Positions 4,029 through 40,443 of a DNA stretch of 64,000 bases are shown in pieces (positions within the stretch are counted from its first letter, which is position 1; each line of letters starts with the position of its first letter). Below the pieces are notes generated by a model, which made no database searches, was not told the DNA's origin, and was given only the letters and a program-made list of their open reading frames with translations. Origin of the DNA: Terriglobia bacterium (GTDB lineage Bacteria > Acidobacteriota > Terriglobia > Terriglobales > Acidobacteriaceae); contig JAIQGE010000001.1 in the NCBI GenBank assembly GCA_020072815.1, positions 124,001 to 188,000 of the forward strand, in the 5' to 3' direction. The position numbers were made by a program, and so were the translations under genes.

Positions 4029-4103
4029 CAGGGTGGAACTTTCCCCCCGGTACCGGCGTATATGGTATGGCGCACATTACTGCGCTGAGCCTGGAAGGAT
4101 CTC

Positions 4104-15447: not shown

Positions 15448-15829
15448 TAATAAAGTTGGCCAGCGGAGTTGATCGCCACCCTCAATATACCTGTTTCGTC
15501 CCGATATTGTTAGGAGTTTTTACGAAAAAGCCGACTTTTTTATGGGTTAGACCCGGCGCCGGATGCTGTGGCCCCCTGCCCGGACCCATGTGGCAAAAGG
15601 CCCGGGGTTCCCGGAATCCAGGGCTCCCGGCTTGCCCGGGTTTGGCAAGCTGGGATGGGGCGCACGCTTCGCGTGGCGGGGTGGAGGCGCCCCCGGCTGC
15701 GCAGAAGCATGGTTTGGGCCCCAGTGCGTCGCGCCCGATCACCCTAGTCGTTGTCCAGCCGGATTCTTCTTGCCTCCCCCGGCTCGCCTTTGCTAGATTC
15801 GGCCTCAGTTGTCCACAATGGGGGAACGG
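15448..15829. other. Gap between ftsQ and a divergent gene; contains a GC-rich repeat
   Basis: No gene is supported here. Position 15676-15713 (GGGTGGAGGCGCCC..GGCTGCGCAGAAGCAT) is a copy of the short repeat seen at 9543-9630. The rest is GC-rich with several short CCCGG inverted repeats. Promoters for ftsQ (leftward) and the secreted protein (rightward) must lie here, but none is clear. Confidence 0.45.
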
Positions 15830-16357: not shown

Positions 16358-16516
16358 AGGCTCTTGCCGGATCTTCTAACGCAGGGTCTTCTAGCGCCAG
16401 GTTCGAACAAACGACGCGCGGCGTGCAGTTTCTTGGCGATTCGCGCCTGCGGAGAGTGCTAAAAGCTCAGGAGTCGGCGGACTTGCCTTGAACTATTTGT
16501 CTTCTGCTGCTGTTCC

Positions 16517-16554
16517 GATCACCAGATCACGCGCGATCACCCGATCACCCGATC
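16517..16554 (+). repeat. Short GATCAC tandem-like repeat
   Basis: GATCAC occurs at 16517, 16525, 16535 and 16543, with a further GATC at 16551, at eight- to ten-base spacing. It ends next to the murC stop codon. Confidence 0.55.
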
Positions 16555-16557
16555 TTC

Positions 16558-17964
16558 CTAGGCCCTTTTCTTTGGCTTTTCGCGGGCTTTCAGCAGCTCC
16601 AGTACCTGCGCGCCCAGTTGAGAGATATTCCCCGCGCCCAGCGTCAAGATCATGTCGCCAGGCTCGGCCGCGGCAACCGCCTCGCGCGCCGCTTCAGCAA
16701 ATGACGTCATGTGGCGCGCTTCTTTCCCGCCCAGCTTCTGGATCGCCGCCACCACGCGCTCAGAGGTCACGCCGGGGATAGGCGGTTCGCTGGCTGGATA
16801 GATGTCCACCAGCAAAACGCTGTCAGCGTCGGCAAAAGCCGTGCCGAATTCGTCCAGCAGGTCCCGCGTGCGGGTGTAGCGGTGCGGCTGGAAGACCACG
16901 TGGACCCGGCTGAAGCCGCACTGTCGCGCGGCCGCCAGCGTGGCGCGGACCTCCGTGGGGTGGTGGCCGTAATCGTCAATCACGCTCACGCCGTCAGCGC
17001 GGCCTTTGAGCTGGAAGCGGCGGTCCACGCCGCGGAAGCTTTCCAGGCCCTCGCGGATCTGCTCCGGATCAACATCCAGTCCCACGCCCACGCCGATGGC
17101 CGCCGTGGCGTTGAGCACGTTGTGGTATCCCGGCACTTGCAGATGAAATTCGCCCAGCGACTTGCCGCGATACTCCACATAAAAGTGCGAATTGTGGCGC
17201 AGGCTGGTGCACTTGGTCTTGGTCCGCAGGACGCGGAAGTCAGAATCTTCACGCTGCCCATAGGTGAGGGCGCGGCGCGCCAGGCGCGTCAGCAGGCTGC
17301 GCAGGCGGTCATCGTCATTGCACAGCAGCACCGTCCCGTAAAACGGCACACGGTCCACAAAATCTATGAAGGCCTGTTCCACGTCCGCCATGTCGCGGTA
17401 GCAGTCCATGTGCTCGCGGTCAATGTTGGTGACCACCGCCAGGATCGGCGAAAGCTTGAGGAAGGAGCGGTCGCTCTCGTCGGCTTCCACCACCATGTAG
17501 CGCGATTTGCCCAGGCGCGCGTTGGAGCCCATGGCATCCACGCGTCCGCCCACCACCACCGTGGGGTCCAGCCCGCCCGCCGCGAGCACCGAGGCCACCA
17601 TGCTGGTGGTGGTGGTCTTGCCGTGCATGCCGGCAATGGCGATGCCGTACTTCAGGCGCATCAATTCCGCCAGCATCTCCGCCCGCGGAATCACCGCGAT
17701 GTGGTGCGCGTGCGCCGAGACGACTTCCAGGTTGTCCCCGCGTACAGCCGAACTGGTCACCACCACCTCCGCGCCGGTGATGTTCTCCGCCTGGTGACCA
17801 ATGAAAATGATTGCCCCCAGTTCCGCCAGGCGTTCGGTGATGGCCGAATGCTTCAGGTCTGAGCCGGAAACCTTGTAGCCGAGCGTAAGCAGGACTTCAG
17901 CAATGCCGCTCATGCCGATCCCGCCAATGCCTACGAAATGAATCCGCTGTATCTTGGCAAACAT
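16558..17964 (-). CDS. murC: UDP-N-acetylmuramate--L-alanine ligase
   Basis: 468 residues, normal length. It adds L-Ala to UDP-MurNAc with ATP in the cytoplasm. The nucleotide loop [10 protein letters not shown], the Mur-ligase P-loop [10 protein letters not shown], the EADESD metal/substrate motif and the [10 protein letters not shown]-terminal motif are present. The start ATG has no obvious ribosome-binding site: the dispersed repeat copy B ends seven bases before it. With murG upstream and ftsQ-ftsA-ftsZ downstream it keeps the usual cluster order apart from the inserted secreted-protein gene. Confidence 0.97.
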
Positions 17965-17970
17965 TATTTG

Positions 17971-18062
17971 TGTCGCTTCGCTCCAAACCGCTTAGGAGCT
18001 TTCTTCTTGTTTGAATCCTTCTGCGCCTGAAGCAGGCCGCTCGGCGCGCCAGTCGGCCTCGC
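17971..18062 (-). repeat. 92-bp dispersed intergenic element, copy B
   Basis: On the minus strand it starts GCGAGGCCGACTGGCGCGCC and ends GGTTTGGAGCGAAGCGACA. With copy C it fills most of the murG-murC gap; the two copies are spaced 117 bases apart. Confidence 0.85.
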
Positions 18063-18087
18063 GGCTGCCATTTCACTCGGTGATGCC

Positions 18088-18179
18088 TGTCGCTTCGCTC
18101 CAACCCGCCGTAGAGCTAGTTCCAGCTTTCGATTCTTCTGCGCTTGGTGCGGCGGGCTCGCCACGCCAGTCGGGCTCGC
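18088..18179 (-). repeat. 92-bp dispersed intergenic element, copy C
   Basis: On the minus strand it starts GCGAGCCCGACTGGCGTGG and ends GGTTGGAGCGAAGCGACA. It is the upstream member of a head-to-tail pair with copy B, 20 bases after the murG stop. Confidence 0.85.
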
Positions 18180-18199
18180 GGTTTTGGTTTGGCTAATTG

Positions 18200-19297
18200 C
18201 TATTTGCTAATTGCTAATTGCTTTTTTCCCGCCAACTCCGCCACCATCCTCGCCACCCGTCCTGCCGCATCGTGATGCGACAAAGCACGCGCCCGCGCCG
18301 ACATCTCCGCCAGCTTTTTCCGGTCGCCCAACAACTCCACAATCGTCTCCGCCAATCGTTGCGGCGTCAACTCCGCTTGAGCAATCAGGACCGCGGCTCC
18401 TCCGGAGGCAATGGCTTCGGCATTGCGTCGCTGGTGATCGTCGGCCGCCTGCGGGAACGGAACAAAAATGGCCGGCTTCCCGGCCGCTGTAATTTCCGCC
18501 ACCGTGCTTGCTCCTGAGCGGCACACCAGCAGGTCGGCCTGGGCAAACGCTTGCGGCATATTGTCAATGAAAGCCGATACTTCGGCGGCTACGCCCGCTT
18601 GCTGGTACGCTGCCGCAACCTCATTATAGTCGCGCTCACCCGTCTGGTGGATGACCCGTAAACCGGGAATTCGCTGCTGTACTTCCGGGATGGCCCCGAT
18701 CATGGCCTGGTTGATGGCCCTGGCCCCTTGGCTTCCGCCAAAGATCAGCAATGTTGGCGGACCGGGACCGCCGGCGGCCGCGGGCGACGAAGGAATCGCA
18801 AAAAACTCCTGCCGCACCGGCACGCCCACCACTTGCGGGTTGCGGAAATATTTCGCGGTCTGCTCAAAGTGCACGGCCGCAGCCGACACCCGCTTGCCCA
18901 CAACCTTGTTGGCGAATCCCGGCACGTAATTGGGCTCAAACGCTAAGGTGGGAATCTTCTCCAGGAGGGCCGCCGCCATGGCCGGACCTGAAGCATAGCC
19001 GCCCACGCCCACCACCACATCAGGATTGAAAATCGCCATGATCTTGCGCGCTTGCATAATGGCCAGCGGCAGATCAATAAGGGTCCGCAGCCGTGTGAGC
19101 CAACTCACGTTCTTCAGCGCGCCGATCTTGACCCGCATCAGCCCAAAGCCCGCCGCCGGCACCAGCCGGTTCTCAATGCCGCGCGCCGTGCCGACGAACA
19201 ACACCTCCGCGCCGTATTGCGCTTTGAGTTCCCGGGCAATAGCCAGCGCCGGAATCACGTGACCGCCTGTTCCACCGCCGGCAATGAGTACGCGCAT
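18200..19297 (-). CDS. murG: UDP-GlcNAc:undecaprenyl-PP-MurNAc-pentapeptide GlcNAc transferase
   Basis: 365 residues. It converts lipid I to lipid II at the inner membrane. The N-terminal [13 protein letters not shown] loop, the central GGSQGA loop and the acceptor-binding region ([28 protein letters not shown]) are conserved. This is the first gene of the leftward murG-murC-ftsQ-ftsA-ftsZ half. The expected upstream neighbour ftsW is 14 kb away at 33571. Confidence 0.97.
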
Positions 19298-19464: not shown

Positions 19465-19529
19465 CGGTTACCGGTGCAATGCTTCTTCTCGCACGCAGAT
19501 CCTGGTGCGAACATGTAACCCGGTTACCG
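19465..19529. promoter_or_regulatory. Direct repeat of CGGTTACCG in the murG-acs divergent region
   Basis: The nine-base word CGGTTACCG occurs at 19465-19473 and 19521-19529 in the 271-base gap between divergent murG and acs. It is nearly palindromic, so it may be a regulator site for acs, but no promoter boxes are clear. Confidence 0.3.
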
Positions 19530-19568
19530 AAAGACCAGACAAATCACACCGACTGCCAGGAGGCGTTT

Positions 19569-21479
19569 ATGGCAACTGTCGCCCACACTGAATCCGGAAT
19601 TGAGCAGCTCTTACAATCGGAAACCGAACTTCAGGCGCCGGCATTTCTGAAAGAACAAGCAAAGCTGAAAGACTATGACGCCGAGTACAAGCGTTCGGTG
19701 GACGACCCTGACGCGTTCTGGGACGGTGTCGCCAAAGAACTGGAATGGTTCCAGCCCTGGAACAAGGTGTTTCAATCCACGTATCCCACGTTCCAGTGGT
19801 TTCTGGGCGGCAAGTGCAACATCGCTTACAACGCGCTCGATCGCCAGGTGAAGTCCGGACGCAAGAACAAAGTCGCTTACATCTGGACCACTGAAGACGG
19901 CAGCGAACGCCAGATCACCTACGGCCAGTTGCTGGACTTTGTCTCCCGCACCGCCAACGGCCTCAAGTCGCTGGGGGTGAAGAAGGGCGACCGCGTCATC
20001 ATCTATATGCCGCTGGCGCTGGAAGGCGTGGTGAGCATGCTGGCTTGCGCGCGCATCGGCGCGGTGCACTCCGTGGTTTATGCCGGGTTCAGCGTGCAAG
20101 CGCTGCGCAGCCGGATTGAAGATGCCCAGGCCCGCGTGGTCCTCACCGCGGATTTCACCATCCGCCGCGGCAAGCGCGTTCCGCTGCGCTCAATCGTTCA
20201 AGAGTCCATTGACGGTCTGGAAATCGTTGACAAAGTGGTGGTCCACCGCCGTGGGGAGCCGTTTGATCTGGATTCGCGCGAAGTTGACTTCTACGAACTG
20301 GTCAAGAGCCAAAGCACTGAGTGTCCAGCTGAGGTCATGGATTCGGAAGACCCGCTTTACATCCTTTATACCAGCGGCACCACCGGCAAGCCGAAAGGCG
20401 TGGTGCACGTGCACGGCGGATACATGGTGGGCACGTACTACCACATGACCCGCTTCTGGGACATCCGCGATGACGACGTCTTCTTCTGCACCTCCGACAT
20501 CGGCTGGGTGGTGGGCCATTCGTATATCGTCTATGCGCCGCTGCTCGCCGGCGCCACCACCGTGTTCCGCGAAGGTGCCATTGATTTCCCGCATCCGGCC
20601 GTGGCTTGGGAGGTTTGCGAGAAGTATCGCGTCTCCGTCGTGTTCACAGCGCCCACGGCCGTCCGCATGTTCATGCGCCATGGCGATGAACTTCCCAAGA
20701 AGTATGACTTGCGCGGCATCCGCTTGTTCACCTGCGCGGGCGAGCCGCTGAACCCGGAAGCTCTGACCTGGGCCTATCGCGTGATCTGCGGCAACGGCAA
20801 GACCGGCTTCGTGGCCGACAACTGGTGGCAAACTGAAACCGGTGGTCCGTGCCTGGGCACGCTCAGCTGCTTCCCCCAGCGTCCGGCCAAAGCCGGCAAG
20901 GCGCTTCCCGGCGTGGTGGCGGAAGTGGTCAACCAGCAAGGCGAGAAGATGCCGCCCAACAAAGGCGGACTGCTGGTGCTGCGCCGTCCTTTCCCCCACA
21001 TGTTCCGCACCGTCTATGGCGACGCGGAGCGCTATGCGCAGGATTGGAGCAAATTCGGCAATGCTTATGCCACCGGCGATGTCGCGGTGTGCGATGCCGA
21101 CGGCTACTTCACCGTGGTGGGCCGCGCCGATGACGTGCTCAACGTTGCCGGCCATCGCATTGGCACCGCTGACGTGGAAGGCGCGTTGGTCAGCCATCCC
21201 GCCGTCGCCGAAGCCGCGGTCATCGGAATCCCGGATGAGATAAAAGGAGAAAACATCAAGGCCTTTGTCATCCTGCGCGTGGGACACACGGCTTCCCCCG
21301 AACTGGAGGCCAAGTTGAAAGACCACGTGCGCCACACGCTGGGCTCGATTGCGGTCCCGGTGGCGGTGGCGTTTCCAGACAAACTGCCCAAGACTCGGAG
21401 TGGAAAGATCATACGGCGCCTGTTAAAGGCGCAGGAACTAGGCCGCGACGTCGGCGATCTTTCAACCCTGGAGGAATAA
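19569..21479 (+). CDS. acs: Acetyl-CoA synthetase (AMP-forming)
   Basis: 636 residues. It activates acetate with ATP and CoA to acetyl-CoA. The P-loop-like YTSGTTGKPKG, the WWQTETGG motif, the hinge (VVGRADDVLNVAGHRIG) and the C-terminal PKTRSGKIIRR with the regulatory/catalytic Lys are all present. AGGAGG lies five bases before the chosen ATG; an upstream in-frame ATG at 19479 has no such site. It stands alone with a strong hairpin after it. It may also act on propionate. Its closeness to the oxalate-type locus fits a small-organic-acid theme but does not prove a shared pathway. Confidence 0.95.
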   Translation: MATVAHTESGIEQLLQSETELQAPAFLKEQAKLKDYDAEYKRSVDDPDAFWDGVAKELEWFQPWNKVFQSTYPTFQWFLGGKCNIAYNALDRQVKSGRKNKVAYIWTTEDGSERQITYGQLLDFVSRTANGLKSLGVKKGDRVIIYMPLALEGVVSMLACARIGAVHSVVYAGFSVQALRSRIEDAQARVVLTADFTIRRGKRVPLRSIVQESIDGLEIVDKVVVHRRGEPFDLDSREVDFYELVKSQSTECPAEVMDSEDPLYILYTSGTTGKPKGVVHVHGGYMVGTYYHMTRFWDIRDDDVFFCTSDIGWVVGHSYIVYAPLLAGATTVFREGAIDFPHPAVAWEVCEKYRVSVVFTAPTAVRMFMRHGDELPKKYDLRGIRLFTCAGEPLNPEALTWAYRVICGNGKTGFVADNWWQTETGGPCLGTLSCFPQRPAKAGKALPGVVAEVVNQQGEKMPPNKGGLLVLRRPFPHMFRTVYGDAERYAQDWSKFGNAYATGDVAVCDADGYFTVVGRADDVLNVAGHRIGTADVEGALVSHPAVAEAAVIGIPDEIKGENIKAFVILRVGHTASPELEAKLKDHVRHTLGSIAVPVAVAFPDKLPKTRSGKIIRRLLKAQELGRDVGDLSTLEE

Positions 21480-22774: not shown

Positions 22775-22812
22775 AAAAAAACTCCCTTCCGCATCGGATG
22801 ATGGGAAGGGAG
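22775..22812 (-). terminator. Rho-independent terminator of the oxalate-type operon
   Basis: On the minus strand CTCCCTTCC (from 22812) pairs with GGAAGGGAG (to 22782) in a nine-base stem, followed by a run of seven Ts (plus-strand As at 22775-22781). It ends transcription 30 bases after the stop of the transporter gene. Confidence 0.9.
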
Positions 22813-22841
22813 CCTGAAACTTTCTTGTTTTGGTCTAGCGA

Positions 22842-24380
22842 CTAGGCAGCCGCGATCGTGGTGCTGCCGCCATCACCTTTTAGTTGAGGCGCTTTCATCC
22901 TGCGTAGGACGAAGAAAGCGAGCGTCGCCGCAATCAAGTCGAAGGCGATAGCCACCGTGAACACTCCGATCCAGCCCGTCTTGGGCAGCGTCCATTTGGC
23001 CGCGAAAGGCGTCCATGTCTTAGGCAGCACGGTTAGCGTGAGGCCGTAGGCGATCACCAGTCCTGCCACGGTGAGCAGAATCCCTTTGGTGGCCTTACTC
23101 AGGTTGATGTTCCACACCGTCGGGGCAAGGAACACGGCGAAGAGCACCATGACTCCACCGATCAAGAGCAGGATGTCGGCGCGAAAATCAAAGGCCTTGC
23201 CCGCCGCCAATGCTGAACCGATGGGAATAAACACTGAAGCTGTCCCCTTGGCCGTGTAGAGGAAGCCGTAATTCGCCGTGGCATGCTTGCGGCCGAAGAA
23301 GTCGCCACAGAGCGCCGGGAACAGCGAGAAGATCTCGCCCCACCCGAAAAAGGTGAATGCGCTGAAGACCACAAACATCAGCGGGTTGCTGGCCGTCTTG
23401 ATCAGGGTGAAGATGGCCACCGCTTCCAAACCAAAAGCCAGGGCCATGGTCTTCTCACGGCCAATATGGTCGGAAACAAATCCCCACAAGGGGCGGCAGA
23501 GGCCGTTCACCAGACGGTCGGCGGAAAGCGCGAAGGTGAGCGCCGGCATGGTGAGCCATAGCAGGCTCACGTTGATTTTGTCCACCTTGAAGTCAATCGC
23601 CATGGGAGCCAGCTGGGCCACTGCCATCAAGCCTCCGGTGGCGACCATGGTCATCATTACATACATGAGCCAGAAGTGCGGCGTCGCCGCCATTTCCCCG
23701 GATGTGAAGGAAACCGGCGCTTGGCGCGTTCTTACTTCTTCGCTGCCTTTGGACCTCCAGGTCTTAGGCAACCATCCCGCCGGCGGCGATTTCAGGAACA
23801 ACGCCGCAATCACCACCACCGCGCCCTGAATGATGCCCCAGCGAATGAATGCCGTTTGGTATCCGGCCGAGGCAATCAATTTGGCGATGGGCGCCACCGT
23901 GAAGGCTGATCCCGCGCCGAAGCCGGCTGCCGTCAATCCTGCCGCCAGGCCACGGTGGTCGGGGAACCATTTCAACGCGCTGCCAACCGCTGTCCCGTAG
24001 ACAATTCCCGCTCCGATGCCGGCGATTGCGTAGGCCAGATACAGAGCTGTGATGGTTTCAGCTTTCCCGCTCATGACCCAGCCCAGTCCGGCGAGAACTC
24101 CGCCCAGCATGACTAGCAAGCGCGGGCCGAACTTGTCCACCAGCCAGCCTTCAAAAGGCACCAGCCAGGTTTCCAGCAGCACAAACACGGTGAACGTCAC
24201 CTGGATGAGCGCTTGTTCTACTTTGAGTTGTTTTTGCAGCGGCGATACAAAGAGCGTCCAGCCGTACTGGAAGTTGGCAACCGCAATCATGCTCACTACG
24301 CTTGCGGTCAGAATCAGCCAGCGGTTGGAGAAGAGAGATTCAGTTTCTGGGGCCGGTGTTGCAGCCGATGATGCAGACAT
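22842..24380 (-). CDS. oxlT: OxlT-like MFS transporter (oxalate/formate antiporter family)
   Basis: 512 residues with 12 MFS helices and two further C-terminal hydrophobic helices (about 442-462 and 477-500). The oxalate:formate antiporter family is recognised from the substrate-binding regions. Arg296 in NGLCRPLWGFVSDHIGRE and Lys378 in YGFLYTAKGT correspond to the Arg272 and Lys355 I recall for OxlT of Oxalobacter, with nearly the same spacing. AGGAGG precedes the ATG. It is the last gene of a leftward set with a GntR regulator and a three-subunit ferredoxin oxidoreductase, which supports oxalate import, perhaps in exchange for formate or carbonate. Other OFA members move different carboxylates, so the substrate is inferred. 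Confidence 0.85.
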   Translation of the reverse strand: MSASSAATPAPETESLFSNRWLILTASVVSMIAVANFQYGWTLFVSPLQKQLKVEQALIQVTFTVFVLLETWLVPFEGWLVDKFGPRLLVMLGGVLAGLGWVMSGKAETITALYLAYAIAGIGAGIVYGTAVGSALKWFPDHRGLAAGLTAAGFGAGSAFTVAPIAKLIASAGYQTAFIRWGIIQGAVVVIAALFLKSPPAGWLPKTWRSKGSEEVRTRQAPVSFTSGEMAATPHFWLMYVMMTMVATGGLMAVAQLAPMAIDFKVDKINVSLLWLTMPALTFALSADRLVNGLCRPLWGFVSDHIGREKTMALAFGLEAVAIFTLIKTASNPLMFVVFSAFTFFGWGEIFSLFPALCGDFFGRKHATANYGFLYTAKGTASVFIPIGSALAAGKAFDFRADILLLIGGVMVLFAVFLAPTVWNINLSKATKGILLTVAGLVIAYGLTLTVLPKTWTPFAAKWTLPKTGWIGVFTVAIAFDLIAATLAFFVLRRMKAPQLKGDGGSTTIAAA

Positions 24381-24502
24381 AGAAATGCCTCCTGACTTGC
24401 CTCACTTGTAAGAAACCTCGCGGGCCAAGTTACATCGCTACTTTGCCTTACCCTTTTTTACCCTTCCCTCTTTCCCTTGACGCCCATCGGGCAGATGGCG
24501 CA

Positions 24503-24532
24503 ACAACGGCAACTCCTTCGAGCTGCCGTTGT
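24503..24532. other. Hairpin between the oxidoreductase beta gene and the transporter gene
   Basis: ACAACGGCA (24503-24511) and TGCCGTTGT (24524-24532) pair perfectly, extended by CTC/GAG around a CTTC loop. There is no T-run on the operon strand, so it is more likely an RNA processing or stability element than a terminator. The rest of the 174-base gap shows nothing. Confidence 0.55.
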
Positions 24533-24554
24533 GCTGTTTTAATTGCCCGGTATA

Positions 24555-25583
24555 TTACTCCGCCGGGGCCTGATCTGCCTCAATTTCTTTTCTGAAGGGA
24601 ATCACGCCGGGATACAGCCATTTGGTCCACATTTCGTCAATCTTGCTCTGGAAGTAGTCGGTATCGTCCTTGGTGAAGTGGGCGAAGCGTCCTTGTTTGG
24701 TCAAGTAGTCTCTTACCGGCTGGCGGCGAATCTTGCCCGCGGCAATCTGTTGGGTCCTGCCGGTCAGGCGCAGTACGCCGTTTTCTATTTCATACAACGG
24801 CCATACGCCGGTATTCACGGCGAGTTCGCCGATTTCGTGAGACAGGTACGGATCGTAGTCCCAGCCCTTGGGGCACGGGTCAAGCGAGTGGATGAACGTG
24901 GGCCCGCCGATGGCCAGGGCCTTGCGCATGGAGTTCATGGCGTGCAGGCCATAGGACATGCTGATGGTTGCGACGTACTTGCATTCCGGGTGTCCCGCGG
25001 CCATCATGCCGGCCATGTTTTTCTTCCAGCGATGATGCATGATCCGCTTTACTTTGCCGGGGGTGCTGAAGGTGGTGTTGGCGCCCCAAGGCGTGCTGCC
25101 GGAGAGCTGAATGTCAGTGTTGGCGTATGACTCGTTGTCATACATCAGGATCAGGCAGTTGTAATCAGGATGGGTCAGTGTGGCCGAGATGCCGCTGATG
25201 CCCATGTCCGCCCCGCCGCCATCGCCGCAGAAGGCGATCACGTTGATGGGCTCGTTCTTCATCTTGCCTTTGCGCATCAGGACTTTCAGCGCGGCGGCTG
25301 TGCCCAGCGCGGCGGAACCGCTGCTGCCCAGTTGCGTATGCATCCACGGCACCACCCAACTGGTGCTGTAATACGTGGTGTTGGCCACGTACATGCATCC
25401 TGTGCTGCCCAGCACGATGGTCCGCGGCCCTGCGGCCTTGGCCATCAGCTTCATCAGCAGCGCCGATTCGCACCCCTGGCATGTCCGGTGGCCGGAGGTA
25501 AAGAATTCCTCCAGGGGCAGCTTCTTGACTGATTTAAACGGGTCCAGCGCCTGTGTGGGATCGTGTTTTACGATAGTAGCCAT
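24555..25583 (-). CDS. Oxalate oxidoreductase-like, beta subunit (TPP and 4Fe-4S)
   Basis: 342 residues. This is the thiamine-pyrophosphate-binding subunit of a 2-oxoacid:ferredoxin oxidoreductase. Cys35 and Cys38 (HRTCQGCES), Cys63 (GSTGC) and Cys237 (DPCPKGW) fit the four ligands of the proximal 4Fe-4S cluster. The TPP/Mg site is CGDGGGADMG (119-128) with NESYANT (150-156). The reaction, if the oxalate assignment is right, is oxalate to two CO2 with two electrons passed to ferredoxin and no CoA needed. An AAGGA site precedes the ATG and the alpha gene ends 50 bases upstream. Confidence 0.88.
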   Translation of the reverse strand: MATIVKHDPTQALDPFKSVKKLPLEEFFTSGHRTCQGCESALLMKLMAKAAGPRTIVLGSTGCMYVANTTYYSTSWVVPWMHTQLGSSGSAALGTAAALKVLMRKGKMKNEPINVIAFCGDGGGADMGISGISATLTHPDYNCLILMYDNESYANTDIQLSGSTPWGANTTFSTPGKVKRIMHHRWKKNMAGMMAAGHPECKYVATISMSYGLHAMNSMRKALAIGGPTFIHSLDPCPKGWDYDPYLSHEIGELAVNTGVWPLYEIENGVLRLTGRTQQIAAGKIRRQPVRDYLTKQGRFAHFTKDDTDYFQSKIDEMWTKWLYPGVIPFRKEIEADQAPAE

Positions 25584-25633
25584 TGCTTCACATTCCTTTC
25601 TGATGGTGAGAACTCACATCAGCGAAAAAAGGT

Positions 25634-26863
25634 TTATTCGCGCAGTCCAATCCACTGCGTAAGCGGCTGCGCCTTGCCACTGGCGGCCTGGAGCACGGAC
25701 GCGGTGATCTTCTCCACATCCGGAATAGTGACTTCGCGGCCGCCGAGACCGGCGATAAAGCCCAGCACTGGCGGCTTGTTGCCCGCGGAGCAGTAAAGAG
25801 CGGTGCGGACCTCAGTGGCCAACACGCCGCTGTTGTAGGGCGATCCCATGGAATAGTCGCGATCAATCACGCCCACGGCCTTGAAACGGCTCAGGCACTT
25901 GGCCAACTCTTCAGCGGCAAATGGACGGAACCAGCGCATGCGGACGAACCCAACTTTCTTGCCTTCATCGCGCATCTTGCGGATGGCCACTTTCACCGGC
26001 GTGGAGAGCGTACCCATGCCCATCAACACCACGTCGGCGTCACTGGTCATGTATTCCTCAAAGAACGGGTTGCCGTAAGAGCGTCCGAAAATCTTTTCAA
26101 ATTCCGCATACGCTTCTTTCAGCACGCCGTAACTCTTCTCAATGGCGGCATAGTTCTGGCGGCGGATCTCCATGACCCAGTCTTCGTTGCCCTGCGGGGC
26201 CACGGTGATGGGATTGTCCGGATGCAGCAGCAGGTCGCCGCGGTCATAGCGCGGCAGGAACTTGTTGACCTGTTCCTGTGTAGGGATGTGCACCAGCGCC
26301 TGGGAATGCGTGAGGAACGCGCCGTCGCAACTGATGGCGCAGGGCAGGAACACCCGGCGGTCTTCAGAAACGCGGTACGCGATCAGCGCGGTGTCCAGGG
26401 CTTCCTGGGCGTTGTCCACCCAGACCAGTTGCCAGCCCAGGTCGCGGACGGCGAGCGCGTCATTGTGTTCCACCCCGAACGCGCCGGGATCATCCAGCGC
26501 GCGGTTGCCGACCATGGCAATCATGGGAATGCGCAACGCCGGAGTAACCGTGAGCGCTTCCATGGCGTACATCCAGCCCACGCCGCTTGAGCCGCAAAAC
26601 ACACGCGCGCCTGCAGCGGAAGCGTGTTTCACGATCTCAAACTGGGAGTGCTCGCCTTCGGCCACAATGTATTCGCAATCCATTTCGCCGTTGGCCACCA
26701 GTTTGCAAATGTACTGCATCACTGTGTCATACGGCCGGATTGGATAGGCCGTGATCACGTCCACATCGGCCAGCTTGCAGGCGACCGCGATGGCTTCGCT
26801 GCCGGTTATTAACGCTGTATCGTCAGTCTTTTTCTGTTCTTCAACGACTGTAGCTATCGCCAT
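25634..26863 (-). CDS. Oxalate oxidoreductase-like, alpha subunit
   Basis: 409 residues. This is the pyrimidine-domain subunit of a 2-oxoacid:ferredoxin oxidoreductase. The conserved TPP-activating Glu is in AEGEHSQFE. Pyruvate enzymes have YPITP here; this protein has YPIRP with Arg43, and GNRALDDPGAF with Arg121, Asp124 and Phe129. From memory the Moorella oxalate oxidoreductase uses Arg31, Arg109, Asp112 and Phe117, so all four match with one offset of 12. This is the main evidence for oxalate as substrate. GGAAGGGAG precedes the ATG. Gene order gamma-delta, alpha, beta is also as in Moorella. Confidence 0.9.
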   Translation of the reverse strand: MAIATVVEEQKKTDDTALITGSEAIAVACKLADVDVITAYPIRPYDTVMQYICKLVANGEMDCEYIVAEGEHSQFEIVKHASAAGARVFCGSSGVGWMYAMEALTVTPALRIPMIAMVGNRALDDPGAFGVEHNDALAVRDLGWQLVWVDNAQEALDTALIAYRVSEDRRVFLPCAISCDGAFLTHSQALVHIPTQEQVNKFLPRYDRGDLLLHPDNPITVAPQGNEDWVMEIRRQNYAAIEKSYGVLKEAYAEFEKIFGRSYGNPFFEEYMTSDADVVLMGMGTLSTPVKVAIRKMRDEGKKVGFVRMRWFRPFAAEELAKCLSRFKAVGVIDRDYSMGSPYNSGVLATEVRTALYCSAGNKPPVLGFIAGLGGREVTIPDVEKITASVLQAASGKAQPLTQWIGLRE

Positions 26864-26887
26864 GACAAACTCCCTTCCTGATGTTGA

Positions 26888-28060
26888 TTATCCTTTGCTC
26901 GCGATGTCCAGCATTTCCGGGATCTGCTCTTCATATTGTCCCAGGTAGCGGAAACCGTGCGATCTGTCGCCATGCCCTTTGATCTTCTGCTGTACCCAGC
27001 CTTTGTAGGCGGCCTTGTCTTTGCGCCACGCCACCCATTGGCTGGAGTTGTCGTGGAAAGCGGTCTCATTCACCATGGTCACGCAGTTGGGTACGGGGCA
27101 TACCGCTTCGCAAACTCCGCAACCGCAGCAGGCTTCCATGTTGGCGTCATACAGACCTTCCGGCGTCACATCGAAGCAGGAATCCGGGCACTGCAGCCAG
27201 CACAGCGTGCACTTGATGCAGGTATCAAAATCCACCACCGGACGCATGGTCCGCGTGCTGAATTTCTTGAACGTGGGATTGCGGTCCGGCTTGTAGCCGC
27301 CTGTGGCCTTGGTGGCCGGATCACTCATAGCATGGCCTTGAGGAATGCTGGGGATGGCGATGCCTTCGCCCATCTGGTGCCAGCTGGGCAGATCAAACTT
27401 GAATGGCACTTCCGGGTTGCCCTGGTTGGGGTTCACGGTGACCGACGTGACGCGCTCAAAGGCCCGCGCCGCGGATGTGACCTTCACCGGATCATGCCAC
27501 TCGTCCGTGATGGCGCTTTGGACTGACTTCAGGCTGAACAGGTCGGGAAGGATTTTGGCGATGGCGCCCAGGATGCGTACGTCCGTGTGGTCATCCTTGT
27601 AGACCCACAGGCCGGAGAAGCTGACGGTGCCCTTGATGATCGCCATTTGGTACGGGGTCTCTTTGCGGTGGCACATGGGGATGATGGCGTCCGGTTGCTC
27701 GCGCGAGGTCACAATCAGCGTGCCGCCGGGCTTGAGCAGCTTGTTGACCGGCTGCAGTCCATACCACGCCCAGGACTCAACCCCTTTGCACAGAGTGTCG
27801 TCCACCACAATGGTGACGTCCACGTCCTTGGGTTCATATTTCGCCATGCCTTCTTCCAGCGTGACGTCGTCGGTGGCGACGATGGCGAAACTTTTTGCGG
27901 GAATGCCGTTGCGTTCCGGGCTGTCACCGTAACGGCCGAATGAGATGCCGGGCTTGCCTTCTTTGTGGGCCGCCAGCACAATTGCACGGCTGATGTTCCT
28001 GGCCAGGGTTTTCTGGAAAATGCCGCGATAGATAATCTCAATGGCGAATAACCGACCCAT
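26888..28060 (-). CDS. Oxalate oxidoreductase-like, fused gamma-delta subunit (two 4Fe-4S clusters)
   Basis: 390 residues. The N-terminal part (1-185) is the gamma domain of 2-oxoacid:ferredoxin oxidoreductases, with a GISFGRYGDSPERNG segment. The C-terminal part (about 270-350) is an 8-iron ferredoxin-like delta domain with CIKCTLCWLQCPDSC and CCGCGVCEAVCPVPNC. The gamma-delta fusion and gene order match the oxalate enzyme of acetogens; many pyruvate enzymes have separate gamma and delta. It carries electrons from the TPP site to ferredoxin in the cytoplasm. GGAGG lies seven bases before the ATG, and the regulator gene ends 18 bases upstream, so all are one operon. Confidence 0.9.
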   Translation of the reverse strand: MGRLFAIEIIYRGIFQKTLARNISRAIVLAAHKEGKPGISFGRYGDSPERNGIPAKSFAIVATDDVTLEEGMAKYEPKDVDVTIVVDDTLCKGVESWAWYGLQPVNKLLKPGGTLIVTSREQPDAIIPMCHRKETPYQMAIIKGTVSFSGLWVYKDDHTDVRILGAIAKILPDLFSLKSVQSAITDEWHDPVKVTSAARAFERVTSVTVNPNQGNPEVPFKFDLPSWHQMGEGIAIPSIPQGHAMSDPATKATGGYKPDRNPTFKKFSTRTMRPVVDFDTCIKCTLCWLQCPDSCFDVTPEGLYDANMEACCGCGVCEAVCPVPNCVTMVNETAFHDNSSQWVAWRKDKAAYKGWVQQKIKGHGDRSHGFRYLGQYEEQIPEMLDIASKG

Positions 28061-28078
28061 GTGCTGCCTCCATATCTT

Positions 28079-28774
28079 TTAGAACTTCTTCAATACCATT
28101 CCCTCTACGTCTCTTAGATGATGCCGCATGGCCGCTTCGGCCGCTTTGGCATCGTGCCGCTTGATCGCCGCCAGCATCCGCTGGTGTCCGGCGAAGGATT
28201 TCTGCGGCCGTCCTTCGGTTTGCAAAGATCGTGCGCGCGTCTCGCGCAGCATGTCCATCACTACGTCCAGCACCTTCAAAACCACGCTATTGCGGGATGC
28301 GGTAGCAATGGCGTAATGAAACTCCGTGTCCTCTTCCACCGCCAGCCCGCCGGTGCGGACTTTCTCGCGATGGCGGCGCAGGATGTCTTCCATCCCGGCG
28401 ATCTCTTTCTGCGATGCATGCCGGGCAGCGCGCGCTGCCAGCGGCGGCTCCAGCATCTTGCGAAAATCCAGCAACTCAGCCACCAACTGCTTGCGGTTGG
28501 CGATCACGCTGGAGAGCGGGCTTACCAGCACGTCTGGCGAAACCTCCCGCACCACCGTCCCCGCGCCTTGCCGGGGCTCCACCATGCCCACCAGTTCCAG
28601 CCGCCGCAGGCCGTCGCGGATGGAGCTGCGGCTCACGCCCAGCATCTCGGTCAACTCGCGTTCCGAGGGAAGCTTGTCGCCGGGGCGCATCTTCTCCAGG
28701 ATCAGCCGCTCAATCTGATGGGCGACTTGCTCATGGACCTTGTGCTTACGGATGGCCGCAAACTCTGCTTTCAT
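28079..28774 (-). CDS. GntR/FadR-family transcriptional regulator
   Basis: 231 residues from the ATG at 28774. The N-terminal winged helix (MRPGDKLPSERELTEMLGVSRSSIRDGLRRLELVGMVEPRQGAGT) is followed by an all-helical FCD ligand domain with likely metal-binding residues (EEDTEFHYAI, SFAGHQRML, MRHHLRD). FCD regulators usually sense small organic acids. It is the first gene of the oxidoreductase-transporter operon. A TGGTC..GACCA inverted repeat sits in its promoter, so autoregulation and oxalate- or product-induced derepression are likely. A GTG at 28786 is an alternative start. Confidence 0.9.
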   Translation of the reverse strand: MKAEFAAIRKHKVHEQVAHQIERLILEKMRPGDKLPSERELTEMLGVSRSSIRDGLRRLELVGMVEPRQGAGTVVREVSPDVLVSPLSSVIANRKQLVAELLDFRKMLEPPLAARAARHASQKEIAGMEDILRRHREKVRTGGLAVEEDTEFHYAIATASRNSVVLKVLDVVMDMLRETRARSLQTEGRPQKSFAGHQRMLAAIKRHDAKAAEAAMRHHLRDVEGMVLKKF

Positions 28775-28825
28775 CGTCGCCAGCACTCCCCGCCCGGTTT
28801 GCCCAATTTGGCATCTGATCCCAAG

Positions 28826-28875
28826 TGGTCTGCTAACCGGACCAAAACACTATACCTCTTCTGCCAGCCCGTCAA
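28826..28875 (-). promoter_or_regulatory. Promoter with GntR-type operator for the oxalate-type operon
   Basis: On the minus strand TTGACG (28875-28870) and TATAGT (28854-28849) form a sigma70-like promoter with a rather short 15-base spacer. Just downstream lies the imperfect palindrome TGGTCTGCTAACCGGACCA (28826-28844), with perfect TGGTC/GACCA arms, like FadR-family sites. An operator at the transcription start fits repression. Confidence 0.55.
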
Positions 28876-31888: not shown

Positions 31889-33526
31889 ATGCGTTCACCA
31901 ACAAAGTGTCTACTGCTCGTTTTACTTTTCATCATGCTCGGCGCCGTCGCCTATCCTCAGAGTACGTCGGCCCCCGCTACCACCGCCTCCTCATCGCCCT
32001 CAGCCGCAAGCCGGGACGAAGTGGACCAACTGCGCCAGGAAGTGGCGGCGCAGCGCCAAACCATTGAGCAACTGAAAACCATGGTGCAGCAACTGGTTTC
32101 AGCCAAATCGCAGGATGCCGCCCCGGGCGCCGCCCGCGTGGTGGATGCCACCTTGGTGCAACCGGCCACGGCCGCCGCACCAGCAACCGCCGCTGCTTCC
32201 GGCCAGGAGTCGGGCGAGAAGGGCGAAAAGAAAGACGGCAACGCCCAGAAATCCGGCCCCGAGCTCAAGTTTTCCGTCGGCGGCGGTGAAGTCCAGATCT
32301 ATGGCCACGCTGACGTGTCCTTCGACTACGTGGACAATGGTCTGGCCAACCGCTTTGGCGCAGTCGGCAACAATGGGTGGCTGGCGCAGCTTTCCAGCAA
32401 CCTGTCTTACTTTGGCGTGCGCGGCTCGCGCAAGCTCACCCACAACCTGAACGGAGTTTTCCAGATTGAAACTGAAGTGGCCTTCACGGCCACGCCCGGC
32501 CCAACCACGGACGCGCAAGTCAAGCAGGGCCTGGGCTCGCGCGATACCTACGTCGGGCTGCAGGGCGACTGGGGCGCCATCAAGATGGGCAAACAAGATG
32601 CGCCTTACAAAAGGGCATCGGCTAGGGTGGACCCGTTCATCAATTCCATCGGCGACAGCCGCAGCATCATGGGCAACAGCGGCGGCGACAATCGCTCAGA
32701 GTTCAACACCCGTGTGCCGCATTCGCTGTGGTATGAGTCGCCGAAGTTTTTCAAAGACTTCAATGCCGCCGTTCAGTTCTCACCCGGACAGAACCGCACT
32801 GACGACAACAGCATCCTGGCGCGCGCCGAACCCAACTGCACCGGCGGCAATGACGGCCCCTGCACCGACGGTGGCTTCGGCAACCTGCTGAGCGCCTCTC
32901 TTACCTATAACAAAGGCCCGCTCTACGCTTTCACCGCTTACGAACACCACGCCAAAGTCAATCGCGCGGCCGACGAGGGCGGATCCTCAGTCCCCGGTGT
33001 GCCGCCGGCGGGATCGGTAGGCATCGCCGACGAAAGCGCATGGAAAATCGGCGGGCAGTACAACTTGAAAAAATCGCGGACGACAGCGAATTTCGTCTAC
33101 GAAAAGCTGAAGCGCTACGCGCCAGCCGTGGGGGCCTTCAACGAGCGCTCGCGGCCAACGGCCACCTGGCTGTCGGTCACGCAAGGGTTCACGCCGAATG
33201 ACGACCTCAATTTCGGCTGGGCCCATGCCGGCAAGACGCCCGGCGATCCTGGCGGGCAGATCAACCAACCCGGAACCCTGATCAACCTGGCCGGGCCGAT
33301 TGACAACGAGGCCAACCTGATTGACCTGGGCTTCAAACACCGCTTCCCGGACAAGAGGACGTCAGCGTACTTCGTATATGCGCAGCAGATGAACCATCAG
33401 GGCGCCCACTACGATCTGGGGGCCAACGGCCACGGGGCCGTTGTGGATCGCCAGGACGCTGCGGGCAATTCCTTCACCGGCTTGACGCACAGAGGGCTCT
33501 CCCTCGGATTGACGTACGACTTCTAA
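31889..33526 (+). CDS. Outer-membrane porin with N-terminal coiled coil
   Basis: 545 residues. After a signal peptide (to about residue 24) comes a coiled coil (DEVDQLRQEVAAQRQTIEQLKTMVQQL, about 42-70) that probably trimerises in the periplasm, an Ala/Thr/Gly-rich linker, and then a 16-strand-type general porin barrel. The barrel starts VQIYGHADVSFDYVDNG, contains the long L3-like loop, and ends GLSLGLTYDF with the C-terminal Phe required for insertion. GGAGA lies before the ATG and a terminator follows directly. It is next to the organic-acid genes and could admit small anions, but that is inference. Confidence 0.88.
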   Translation: MRSPTKCLLLVLLFIMLGAVAYPQSTSAPATTASSSPSAASRDEVDQLRQEVAAQRQTIEQLKTMVQQLVSAKSQDAAPGAARVVDATLVQPATAAAPATAAASGQESGEKGEKKDGNAQKSGPELKFSVGGGEVQIYGHADVSFDYVDNGLANRFGAVGNNGWLAQLSSNLSYFGVRGSRKLTHNLNGVFQIETEVAFTATPGPTTDAQVKQGLGSRDTYVGLQGDWGAIKMGKQDAPYKRASARVDPFINSIGDSRSIMGNSGGDNRSEFNTRVPHSLWYESPKFFKDFNAAVQFSPGQNRTDDNSILARAEPNCTGGNDGPCTDGGFGNLLSASLTYNKGPLYAFTAYEHHAKVNRAADEGGSSVPGVPPAGSVGIADESAWKIGGQYNLKKSRTTANFVYEKLKRYAPAVGAFNERSRPTATWLSVTQGFTPNDDLNFGWAHAGKTPGDPGGQINQPGTLINLAGPIDNEANLIDLGFKHRFPDKRTSAYFVYAQQMNHQGAHYDLGANGHGAVVDRQDAAGNSFTGLTHRGLSLGLTYDF

Positions 33527-33575: not shown

Positions 33576-34662
33576 CCGCCTGTTGCGTGACGTTCAGCAA
33601 CACGCCCACGCTGGCCAGCATCACAAACAGCGATGACCCGCCATAAGAAATGAACGGCAGCGGAATGCCTTTGGTCGGCAGCAGGGCCAGCACCACGCTG
33701 ATGTTAAAAAAGGCCTGGGCCACCACCATCGTCGTAATGCCCACGGCCAGGAAGCGGGCAAACGGGTCGCGCGAGCGCATGGCGGCACGAAACCCGCGCC
33801 AGGCAAACACCGCAAACAGCAACGCAACGAACACTGCGCCCACCATTCCCAGCTCTTCCGCGGTGACGGCGTAGATGAAGTCGGTGTGCGGCTCGGGCAG
33901 GTAGAAAAGTTTCTGGCGGCCTTCCATCAATCCAAGGCCGGTGATGCCCCCGGTCCCCACGGCAATGAGCGATTGGTTGATATGGAAGCCGGCGCCTTGA
34001 GGATCACGGTCAGGAAACAGGAACGCGATGATACGCTTCCATCGCCAGGGCACAAACACGATCAAATAGAGCACCGCGGGAACGATCGGCACCAGAGCGT
34101 AAACAAAGTAGCGGATGCGCATGCCGGCGGCATAGAGAATGGCCGCGGTGACGCCCATGCAAACCAAGGCCGTGCCCAGATCAGGCTGCCGGATGATGAG
34201 CGCCGCAAACAGCGCCACCGGAACAGCAACCGGCAACAGAGTGTGCCGCCAGTCGTCCATGGATTTGAGGCGGCCTTCCAGAAAAAACGCCAGAAACAGG
34301 ATGAGCGCGGGCTTGGCCAACTCCGACGGCTGAAACGAGAACGCGCCCATGCGAATCCAGCGATGTGTGTTGTGCGTGCGGTCCAGAAAGAGCACGGCCA
34401 CCAGCAACAGCGTAGTCAGGCCGAGAAACGTGAAGACCACGCCGGGATGCTTCCAGCGGCGATAGTCCACGCGCATCAGCACGGCCATGGCGGCCAGTCC
34501 GGCCAGCGCCCAGCCGAGTTGGCGAACCACAAAATGGTACGGCGAACCAAAACGCTCTCCGGCCAGCACCGCCGACGCGCTGAACACCATCACCACGCCC
34601 ACGCCGGTCAGCAAGAGGGTCGCCGCAAACAGCCATTTATCTATGCCTACTCGTCTGGCCAC
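33571..34662 (-). CDS. ftsW: Lipid II polymerase FtsW (SEDS family)
   Basis: 363 residues with about ten membrane helices. SEDS hallmarks are present: FQPSELAKPALILF, the periplasmic loop with PEPHTDFIYAVTAEELGMVG, and the final PLPFISYGGSSL. It polymerises septal glycan strands together with a class B PBP. The start is a GTG that shares its G with the murD stop (TAGTG), the same junction as ftsQ-ftsA. It ends this half of the split cluster; murG would normally follow. Confidence 0.95.
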   Translation of the reverse strand: MARRVGIDKWLFAATLLLTGVGVVMVFSASAVLAGERFGSPYHFVVRQLGWALAGLAAMAVLMRVDYRRWKHPGVVFTFLGLTTLLLVAVLFLDRTHNTHRWIRMGAFSFQPSELAKPALILFLAFFLEGRLKSMDDWRHTLLPVAVPVALFAALIIRQPDLGTALVCMGVTAAILYAAGMRIRYFVYALVPIVPAVLYLIVFVPWRWKRIIAFLFPDRDPQGAGFHINQSLIAVGTGGITGLGLMEGRQKLFYLPEPHTDFIYAVTAEELGMVGAVFVALLFAVFAWRGFRAAMRSRDPFARFLAVGITTMVVAQAFFNISVVLALLPTKGIPLPFISYGGSSLFVMLASVGVLLNVTQQAE

Positions 34663-36059
34663 TAGCTTCTGTCTCCCGTCGTCACCGGAGCCAGCGCCAT
34701 CACCAACTCCTTGAAGATGCGTCCGCGCTGTTCGTAGTTTTCAAACTGGTCAAAGCTGGCGCACGCGGGAGCCAGCAGCACTACGTCGCCCGGCTTGGCG
34801 GCCTCAAAAGCCTGGCGCACCGCCCGCTCCAGCGTGCCGGAACGTTCGATGGGCGTGGCCCCCTGGATCTGCGAAGCAATCTTCTCCGCGGCGGCGCCGA
34901 TCAAATACGCTCGCCGCGCACGCTCGCGCAGCAAGGCGACAAGCACCGTGTAGTCGCTGCCTTTGTCTTTGCCGCCAAGAATAATGTGGATGTTTCCCGG
35001 GAACGACTCCAGCGCTTTCACCGTGGCATCCACGTTGGTGGCTTTGGAATCGTTGTAAAACGCGACGCCGTTGATGGTGGTCACCAGTTCCAGACGGTGT
35101 TCCACCGCGCGGAAGTCGCTGACGGCCTGGCGCACCTGCTGCGGCCCGCATCCGGCAACCATGCCCATGGCCACCGCGGCCAGCACGTTCTCCAGATTGT
35201 GCGCGCCTTTTAGATGAATGTCCGCTCGCGTCAGGACGGTTTGGTCTTTACCATTTTGCCGGAAGATGATGTCGTCGCCCTTGAGGTACGCTCCGTTTTC
35301 GACAGGCTGCTTGCGGCTGAACCACAACAGCGAGCTCTTGATTTTGCCTTTCAGCGCGACGCACGCGGGATCGTCGGCATTGAGCACGGCGAAATCGCCA
35401 GAACTCTGGTTTTCCCCAGCGCCTGGGCGCTGGTTTTCAAAGATGCGTGCCTTGGCGTCCGCGTACGCCTGAAAAGTGTGGTGGCGGTCCAGATGGTCAG
35501 GCGTGATATTGAGGACGGCCGCGATCCAAGGACGAAACTGCTCAATCGTCTCCAACTGAAAGCTGGAAATCTCCAGGACGACCAGCGCGTCCGGCGAAGA
35601 TTTTCCGGCAAGAGATATCACCGGCGTACCGATGTTGCCGCCCACCAGCGTCTTCTTCCCGCTTTTGGCCAGGATTTCGCCCACCAAAGTAGTCGTGGTG
35701 GTCTTGCCGTTGGAGCCGGTAATCGCGATCACCTTGCCTTGCAGGAAGCGGAACGCCAGTTCAACTTCGCCGATCACCGGAATGCCCAGGGTGCGCGCGT
35801 GCTGCAAGTTCGGCTGGTCCGTGGGAACGCCCGGGCTCACCACGATCAGGTCCTGGTCGCGGAAGGTGCGCTCGCCGTGGCGCCCGGTTTCAATAGAGAC
35901 GCCGCGGTCCAGCAGCGCGGCAATTTCAGTTTGCAACTGGACGTCACTCTTGGCGTCAGAAACGGTGACCTTGGCGCCGCGTTCCTGCAAAAAGAATGCC
36001 GCAGCCACGCCGGAACGGCCCAGCCCAACCACCAAGACCCGTTTGTTCTTCAACTCCAT
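34662..36059 (-). CDS. murD: UDP-N-acetylmuramoyl-L-alanine--D-glutamate ligase
   Basis: About 465 residues. It adds D-Glu to UDP-MurNAc-L-Ala. Visible are the N-terminal Rossmann loop VVGLGRSGVA, the P-loop GSNGKTTTTT, the HxDRH motif in DHLDRHHTF, and the DSKATNVDAT substrate-binding region. I placed the start at the second Met (MELKNKRVLVVGLG), which fits family N-termini; a Met four codons earlier (36071) is possible. It lies between mraY and ftsW and is coupled to ftsW. Confidence 0.96.
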   Translation of the reverse strand: MELKNKRVLVVGLGRSGVAAAFFLQERGAKVTVSDAKSDVQLQTEIAALLDRGVSIETGRHGERTFRDQDLIVVSPGVPTDQPNLQHARTLGIPVIGEVELAFRFLQGKVIAITGSNGKTTTTTLVGEILAKSGKKTLVGGNIGTPVISLAGKSSPDALVVLEISSFQLETIEQFRPWIAAVLNITPDHLDRHHTFQAYADAKARIFENQRPGAGENQSSGDFAVLNADDPACVALKGKIKSSLLWFSRKQPVENGAYLKGDDIIFRQNGKDQTVLTRADIHLKGAHNLENVLAAVAMGMVAGCGPQQVRQAVSDFRAVEHRLELVTTINGVAFYNDSKATNVDATVKALESFPGNIHIILGGKDKGSDYTVLVALLRERARRAYLIGAAAEKIASQIQGATPIERSGTLERAVRQAFEAAKPGDVVLLAPACASFDQFENYEQRGRIFKELVMALAPVTTGDRS

Positions 36060-36144
36060 GCCGGTTCCCATTGTGACACGAATGAGTGTGCCGCGAACCT
36101 GTTTCCCACTCGAACCCGTTTACTCGTCGCGCACCATCGCGGCA

Positions 36145-37278: not shown

Positions 37279-37290
37279 TATTCCTCCGCA

Positions 37291-40419: not shown

Positions 40420-40443
40420 TGTCTCGATTATATTCAAACCCAA

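Follow-up and report, generated by a model that had tools for sequence, protein, structure and literature searches.

A putative operon for oxalate uptake and coenzyme A-independent oxalate oxidation in an acidobacterium and its relatives in other phyla

Introduction

Can an acidobacterium that carries haem-copper oxidases import oxalate and oxidize it using a kind of enzyme that is known from an acetogen avoiding oxygen? This question is raised by a five-gene operon in a 64,000-nucleotide stretch of the genome of a Terriglobia bacterium (GenBank assembly GCA_020072815.1, contig JAIQGE010000001.1, positions 124,001 to 188,000 of the forward strand), referred to below as the window. The operon combines a GntR-family regulator, three subunits resembling the oxalate oxidoreductase (OOR) of Moorella thermoacetica, and a transporter of the major facilitator superfamily (MFS) related to OxlT. 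A sequence-only reading of this DNA had proposed that the bacterium imports oxalate, an acid common in plants and fungi, and oxidizes it to CO2. This proposal is supported by the position of the enzyme in phylogenetic trees and by the gene neighborhoods of its relatives, and it is very likely that the operon encodes oxalate uptake and coenzyme A (CoA)-independent oxidation. Substrate, direction, electron acceptor, CoA-independence and inducer are what we infer from sequence comparison.

Organization of the operon

As the sequence-only reading had described, five open reading frames lie on the minus strand and run leftward in the order GntR, gamma-delta, alpha, beta and OxlT-like MFS protein, with short gaps of 18, 24 and 50 nt among the first four, 174 nt before the last, and one terminator at the end. 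The features are as follows.

22778..22815, minus strand: intrinsic terminator closing the operon, a hairpin followed by a T-run
22842..24380, minus strand: OxlT-like MFS transporter with the R296/K378 pair; 512 amino acids, above the TIGR04259 cut-off, PDB relative 8hpj
24555..25583, minus strand: beta subunit with a thiamine pyrophosphate (TPP) domain and one [4Fe-4S] cluster (C35, C38, C63, C237); 342 amino acids, PDB relative 5c4i_C
25634..26863, minus strand: alpha subunit with putative oxalate-binding residues R43, R121, D124 and F129; 409 amino acids, top match OOR alpha, placed by trees
26888..28060, minus strand: fused gamma-delta subunit with two [4Fe-4S] clusters; 390 amino acids, top match OOR delta, PDB relative 5c4i_B
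28079..28786, minus strand: GntR-family regulator, FCD subfamily; 235 amino acids, GTG start, Pfam GntR and FCD above cut-off
28826..28844: probable GntR operator, the dyad TGGTC-N9-GACCA with exact arms, the sole zero-mismatch copy in the window
28849..28875, minus strand: possible promoter TTGACG-15 nt-TATAGT, recognized by eye, immediately upstream of the dyad

The Pfam domains of the proteins, from regulator to transporter, were GntR and FCD, 4Fe-4S dicluster, POR_N and PFOR_II, TPP_enzyme_C, and MFS_1. The terminator hairpin has a folding energy of -24 kcal/mol (z -5.94 relative to shuffled sequences); it was not picked up by a simple terminator scan.

Phylogenetic position and motifs of the alpha subunit

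OOR-like proteins resembling those of the operon are called window-type below; L-numbers denote loci of relatives and G-numbers genomes. A maximum-likelihood tree was built from 72 alpha subunits, including 44 of the 90 window-type rows and six Moorella-type rows (Moorella and five acidobacterial sequences), with residues 43 and 120-130 masked, which keeps the tree independent of the active-site motif. The 44 window-type and six Moorella-type alphas together formed one side of a branch with 100/100 support, and each of the two types formed one side of its own branch (100/99). The two paralogues from the same genome that served as outgroup, a pyruvate:ferredoxin oxidoreductase (PFOR) and a 2-oxoacid oxidoreductase, had very long branches and separate attachment points, and hence a second tree left out both of them and L028_Por. 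In this 69-row tree the OOR grouping was unchanged, and the 19 pyruvate-type alphas also formed one side of a branch. The comparison with Moorella OOR and with pyruvate and 2-oxoglutarate enzymes that the sequence-only reading had called for thus places the window alpha with Moorella and not with the 19-20 alphas of the pyruvate type; 2-oxoglutarate-type enzymes were represented in it only by the single 2-oxoacid oxidoreductase on its very long branch.

The masked motif agreed with the tree. Both YPIRPY and NRALDDPGAFG were present in 88 of 90 window-type alphas, the exceptions being L063 (YAIRPY) and L094 (a fragment), and Arg43 occupied the place of the YPITP threonine in all 89 that cover the position. 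All six Moorella-type alphas had YPIRPY with DRTLDPPGDFG. In contrast, YPITP was found in 22/22 other 2-oxoacid:ferredoxin oxidoreductases (20 of PorA type, including PDB 9bt4, plus the two paralogues), so that the proposed substitution of YPIRP for YPITP was borne out; the window alpha has neither YPITP nor a place among PorA proteins. A diagnostic motif, YPIRPY plus ALDDPGAFG, is available for this lineage.

Subunit similarity, active-site residues and iron-sulfur clusters

The top NCBIfam match of the gamma-delta, alpha and beta proteins was an OOR model each time, and two separate stretches of the gamma-delta protein matched the OOR delta model, as in a gamma-delta fusion. Among PDB entries, Moorella OOR ranked first for alpha (5c4i_A, 336 bits; runner-up PFOR 9bt4, 221), beta (5c4i_C, 281 bits; runner-up 202) and gamma-delta (5c4i_B, 86 bits; runner-up 41). 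The alpha subunit was 44.4% identical to that of Moorella and at most 36.7% identical to any PorA row. The archaeal PorA-type PFOR 9bt4 belongs to the same superfamily, but it carries YPITP, lacks equivalents of Asp124 and Phe129 and shares 33% identity with the window alpha.

In the phmmer alignment to 5c4i_A, Arg31, Arg109, Asp112 and Phe117 of Moorella OOR, which we take to be key active-site residues, correspond to Arg43, Arg121, Asp124 and Phe129 of the window alpha, with the constant offset of 12 noted earlier. One correction to the sequence-only reading concerns Arg121: pyruvate-type rows keep Arg at its place, and therefore only Arg43, Asp124 and Phe129 tell the two types apart. Cysteines for the three [4Fe-4S] clusters of an OOR (four in beta, eight in delta) were found throughout the window type: C35, C38, C63 and C237 of beta were kept in 80/80 rows, and the eight delta cysteines together with Cys326 in 83/83 gamma-delta rows.

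The operon thus resembles Moorella OOR (PDB 5c4i, 5exd and 5exe) in its alpha, beta and fused gamma-delta subunits, in YPIRPY, in the Arg/Arg/Asp/Phe set and in every cluster cysteine; the Moorella genes are arranged in the order delta-alpha-beta. It differs in forming a separate clade with 44% alpha identity, a changed loop and an Asp at the position of beta Gly145, in its longer gamma-delta protein (390 versus 315 amino acids), in having OxlT and GntR genes within the operon, and in a host with haem-copper oxidases.

Distribution and gene neighborhoods of relatives

Among 396 Acidobacteriota genomes, an OOR alpha above the cut-off was present in three, where the delta part belongs to a GltD-like FAD/NAD(P) protein, and a window-type alpha in eight, including the genome studied here (371-390 bits, followed by a drop to 311). 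Relatives are also encoded by 274 stretches of a species-level genome collection, and the 80 top-ranking ones among these carry the labels Acidobacteria, Myxococcota/Deltaproteobacteria, Armatimonadetes, ANGP1, Acetothermia, Rokubacteria, Chloroflexi (SAR202 included), Pseudomonadota and Nitrospinota, plus one plain "bacterium"; all 80 are titled metagenome-assembled genomes (MAGs), with taxon labels and contig purity as deposited. Judged from the trees and these labels, the window-type lineage is sister to Moorella-type OOR, occurs in MAGs assigned to about eight phyla and is not confined to Acidobacteria.

Relatives were divided into close (alpha identity of at least 74%, n = 52) and more distant ones (n = 37). 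Where at least 3.5 kb of downstream sequence was available, an OxlT-like gene was found at 27 of 34 close loci and TctA at three, whereas 20 of 33 distant loci had TctA and none OxlT. Pfam searches recognized TctABC in L103 and TctA with TctC in L095 and L085. At 20 pyruvate-type control loci from the same phylum, 19 of which had a downstream flank of 3.5 kb or more, none of nine reference neighbor genes was seen, and OxlT-like or TctA genes were found at 0 of the 20; these loci replaced an earlier control set of 19 PorA loci, whose flanks of about 1.5 kb were too short.

A deep window-type subclade (L037, L038 and L041) had 56-58% alpha identity and the same motif. In L038, a group II intron reverse transcriptase (above cut-off) adjoins the OOR genes at 3674-5056.

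Genes of oxalate metabolism in linked clusters

Several relatives carry further genes that bear on the substrate. Eight of 52 close-relative loci encode an AMP-forming ligase together with a PanE-like reductase. In seven the pair lies upstream of gntR, with ligases 70-87% identical to that of L034; in L064 it lies downstream and the ligase is 47% identical. The same pair precedes the Moorella-type cluster L034, whose ligase had oxalate-CoA ligases as its four best PDB relatives (427-291 bits; next 247). A PanE homologue is the oxalyl-CoA reductase of Methylobacterium. In aerobic methylotrophs, according to one study, oxalyl-CoA is reduced to glyoxylate (PMC3720670). Besides, a formyl-CoA transferase (575.8 bits, cut-off 504.2) is encoded about 6 kb upstream in gammaproteobacterial L122, and L125 has one that is 54% identical to it. 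The neighborhoods of relatives thus provide a pointer to oxalate that does not depend on the active-site residues.

Window-type and Moorella-type OOR genes also occur together. In L049 and L050, gntR and window-type gamma-delta, alpha and beta are followed in one direction by Moorella-type gamma, a GltD-like gene, alpha and beta; in L049, OxlT is present further downstream. Stretches with the window type followed by the Moorella type in the same direction are:

L049:8070-21116
L050:1972-11264
L051:3938-9032 (of the Moorella type, only gamma and the beginning of the GltD-like gene are covered before the contig ends)

The acidobacterial Moorella-type OOR (L034, L035, L036, L049, L050) shares the dyad and the transporter family with the window type, and has a regulator related to its own, in the case of L034; in L049 and L050 it lies in a single gene row with it. 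It differs in that gamma is a separate gene and the delta clusters sit in a GltD-like FAD/NAD(P) protein, instead of a fused gamma-delta subunit. GltD-like proteins with delta clusters are encoded at:

L034:7478-9310
L035:4102-5748
L036:1125-3899

Their top match was PRK12771, below its cut-off of 516 (L034, 504.3; L036, 494.1; L035, truncated, 457.9). Because the delta clusters sit in such a protein, NAD(P) is the likely acceptor, NAD(P)H being the probable product of the acidobacterial Moorella-type OOR. A GltD-like domain is lacking in the window type, whose probable product is reduced ferredoxin.

The transporter

The transporter scored 527.3 bits on TIGR04259 (oxalate/formate antiporter; cut-off 335), and its best PDB relative was OxlT (8hpj, 248 bits; lactate transporter, 142). 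The Arg/Lys pair of OxlT that the sequence-only reading had recognized is in place: Arg296 and Lys378 align with OxlT Arg272 and Lys355, whereas in the same output Cys stands where Lys355 would be in the lactate transporter 6g9x. We assume a role for this pair in OxlT, and we take Gln34/Tyr35, Tyr124, Trp324, Tyr328 and Trp352 to be site residues. Like the Oxalobacter formigenes protein, the window transporter passes the family cut-off and conserves Arg272/Lys355, Gln34/Tyr35, Tyr124 and Trp324. Unlike it, the window protein has Phe for Tyr328 and Tyr for Trp352, is longer (512 versus 427 amino acids) and accompanies an enzyme that would yield CO2 instead of formate, which makes formate exchange unlikely.

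The window transporter shares 72-79% identity with the OxlTs of L040, L053, L062, L065 and L078-L080 and 41-54% with those of most other close relatives; thus, the same OOR pairs with two transporter subtypes. Within Acidobacteriota, OxlT above the cut-off was found in 7 of 11 OOR-bearing genomes (the others being G229, G266, G277 and G290) compared with 11 of 385 other genomes (Fisher p 3e-8, uncorrected for shared ancestry).

Regulator and upstream dyad

A gntR-related gene was present at 44 of the 52 close loci and at 18 of the 37 distant ones. Of 45 loci, 26 had the dyad, with a spacer of 8 or 9 bp, at a distance of 25-75 nt upstream of the gntR start (end-anchored); the corresponding expectation of 0.05 from mononucleotide shuffles is uncorrected for relatedness and for choice of the motif, which had been picked by searching these very sequences for dyads. 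The 45 loci were all rows with gntR of at least 45% identity and enough upstream DNA, leaving out Rokubacteria and L040. The Moorella-type cluster L034, one of the 45, has a related regulator and the dyad. Like the alpha motif, the dyad is a conserved feature open to direct tests. On the minus strand, a consensus promoter scan with spacers of 16-18 nt found none; the spacer of the possible promoter is 15 nt.

A genome-wide GntR regulon was also considered. The exact dyad occurs at 18 genome sites, compared with 11 for a reversed control pattern, and no wider regulon is therefore claimed.

A gene for a CDC48/FtsH-related AAA ATPase adjoins gntR in four OOR clusters, among which both types are represented:

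L034:10008-12269
L036:3631-5856
L042:10627-12288
L044:11064-12668

Other 2-oxoacid and oxalate enzymes in the genome

A search of the genome with the window alpha (E 0.001) returned two other proteins, a 1195-amino-acid PFOR (1836.5 bits, cut-off 911) and a 613-amino-acid 2-oxoacid:acceptor oxidoreductase alpha subunit (574.5, cut-off 482.75). Neither oxalyl-CoA decarboxylase (Oxc) nor formyl-CoA transferase (Frc), the enzymes of CoA-dependent oxalotrophy, was found above cut-off. The best matches in the genome to the oxalate-CoA ligase and the PanE-like reductase were 29% and 27% identical, so that neither has a close counterpart there. Two haem-copper oxidase (COX1) genes scored above cut-off. 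OOR would thus be the only recognized oxalate route, a dissimilatory one in an oxygen-equipped host (oxalate decarboxylase and oxidase were not searched for).

Proposed pathway and alternative explanations

In the proposed pathway, oxalate would enter via the OxlT-like carrier with protons or against another anion, because no formate would arise. A TPP-dependent alpha-beta-gamma-delta complex would decarboxylate oxalate gripped by two arginines, and the remaining carboxyl-TPP would be oxidized to a second CO2. Three [4Fe-4S] clusters would relay two low-potential electrons; ferredoxin, by analogy with Moorella OOR, is their most likely acceptor, and O2 would be their final destination in this host. 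The GntR protein most likely represses from the dyad adjoining the promoter and would be released by oxalate or a derivative. Since no oxalate-assimilation genes were recognized, the cell would gain energy and reductant from the route, with a rise in pH, but not carbon.

On a wider scale, we hold with somewhat more belief than doubt that a second OOR lineage represents a widespread ferredoxin-linked, CoA-free breakdown of oxalate, also in oxygen respirers, and that some Acidobacteria combine it with an NAD(P)-linked OOR and an oxalyl-CoA-to-glyoxylate branch, dividing oxalate between energy and carbon. If this lineage oxidizes oxalate, a bacterium with haem-copper oxidases would carry out a very low-potential, probably ferredoxin-linked reaction, and one may ask how it uses the electrons. 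Because the same gene set recurs in many uncultured bacteria, an oxalate sink relevant to soil carbon and the oxalate-carbonate pathway may have been overlooked. In its oxc analysis, an oxalotrophy survey assigned sequences to Acidobacteria; the available part of its main text has no mention of oxidoreductase, OOR or ferredoxin (PMC10192776). A search limited to open-licence papers, with subscription papers outside it, found none joining "oxalate oxidoreductase" and Acidobacteri-.

Several observations weigh against oxalate oxidation by this operon. All three subunits scored below the curated NCBIfam OOR cut-offs (NF045790/NF045791/NF045792): gamma-delta, 103.9 versus 230 bits; alpha, 384.8 versus 500; beta, 331.3 versus 590. 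For this reason we regard the window type as a sister lineage and not an equivalog member; this refines the OOR identity given by the sequence-only reading, as does the extension of the lineage beyond Acidobacteria. The alpha loop is altered relative to Moorella (D108 to N120, P113 to D125, D116 to A128). In beta, Asp157 is a mark of the clade (80/80 rows) directly after the Asn-Thr of the TPP/Mg motif; its Moorella equivalent is Gly145, adjoining Asn143-Thr144, and Gly is also found in 4/4 acidobacterial Moorella-type rows and PFOR 9bt4. Function could therefore have shifted. The presence of both OOR types in one locus likewise suggests that they are not fully redundant. The transporter also exceeds the cut-off of the lactate transporter SfMCT (342 versus 320), and 19 of the 45 loci searched showed no dyad. 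OxlT was seen at only 1 of 37 distant loci, L040, which has a shorter flank and OxlT upstream. Sixteen Rokubacteria loci carry TctA instead, with TctA and TctC adjoining the OOR genes (L096, L099-L107, L109, L110, L113-L115, L118), nine Chloroflexota loci have neither OxlT nor TctA, and neither was seen near the genes of L037, L038 and L041 (downstream flank of L037 below 1 kb). Finally, according to one report, two cultured Dehalococcoidia (Tepidiforma), which may or may not carry the operon, do not use oxalate (PMC10284905).

Three alternatives were weighed. The first, compatible with an oxalate-specific enzyme, is that oxalate is oxidized for detoxification or pH control, or that the reaction runs from CO2 to oxalate, energy not being the purpose. 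No assimilation branch was recognized, and the missing ligase and PanE-like counterparts agree with this view, but a transporter of an oxalate-uptake family and a probable repressor in the operon fit catabolism, and reduction of CO2 to oxalate is energetically very unfavorable; we consider this alternative unlikely. The second is that another small oxoacid such as glyoxylate is the main substrate and the transporter carries a related C2 compound or monocarboxylate. An FMN-dependent 2-hydroxyacid oxidase-like gene, a possible source of glyoxylate, was found in 9 of 37 distant loci, all labelled Chloroflexota:

L108, L111, L112, L116, L117, L119, L121, L123, L127

The clade-specific Asp beside the TPP motif, and a Moorella-type OOR in the same row (L049, L050) that would otherwise be redundant, could be explained in the same way. 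This possibility is opposed by the invariant Arg43, by OxlT above its cut-off and by the oxalate-CoA ligase or Frc genes of linked clusters, and appears improbable. The third, an ordinary pyruvate or 2-oxoglutarate ferredoxin oxidoreductase, gains something from the score on NCBIfam PorA_Arch (354 bits versus 385 for OOR alpha) and is effectively ruled out by the tree, the motif, the neighborhood and the separate PFOR and 2-oxoacid oxidoreductase of the genome. Oxalate uptake and oxidation thus remains our preferred interpretation.

Among the Chloroflexota loci, L123 also encodes a TPP enzyme and a 760-amino-acid CoA-transferase fusion related to Frc (below cut-off).

Surroundings of the operon in the window

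An acetyl-CoA synthetase-like gene (19479-21479, plus strand) was considered as a component and rejected; it lies on the opposite strand and is 25-27% identical to the ligases of relatives. The operon is flanked by a division and cell-wall cluster (FtsQ, MurG, Mur-ligase and a MraY-type glycosyltransferase-4; 14122-19297 and 34662-40443). Between the operon and the cell-wall genes are a protein weakly similar to C25 (29172-30761, below cut-off) and a porin (31889-33526). Further along, positions 46819-51459 encode a 1546-amino-acid subtilase with four Ig-like (Big_3_5) stretches and FG-GAP repeats.

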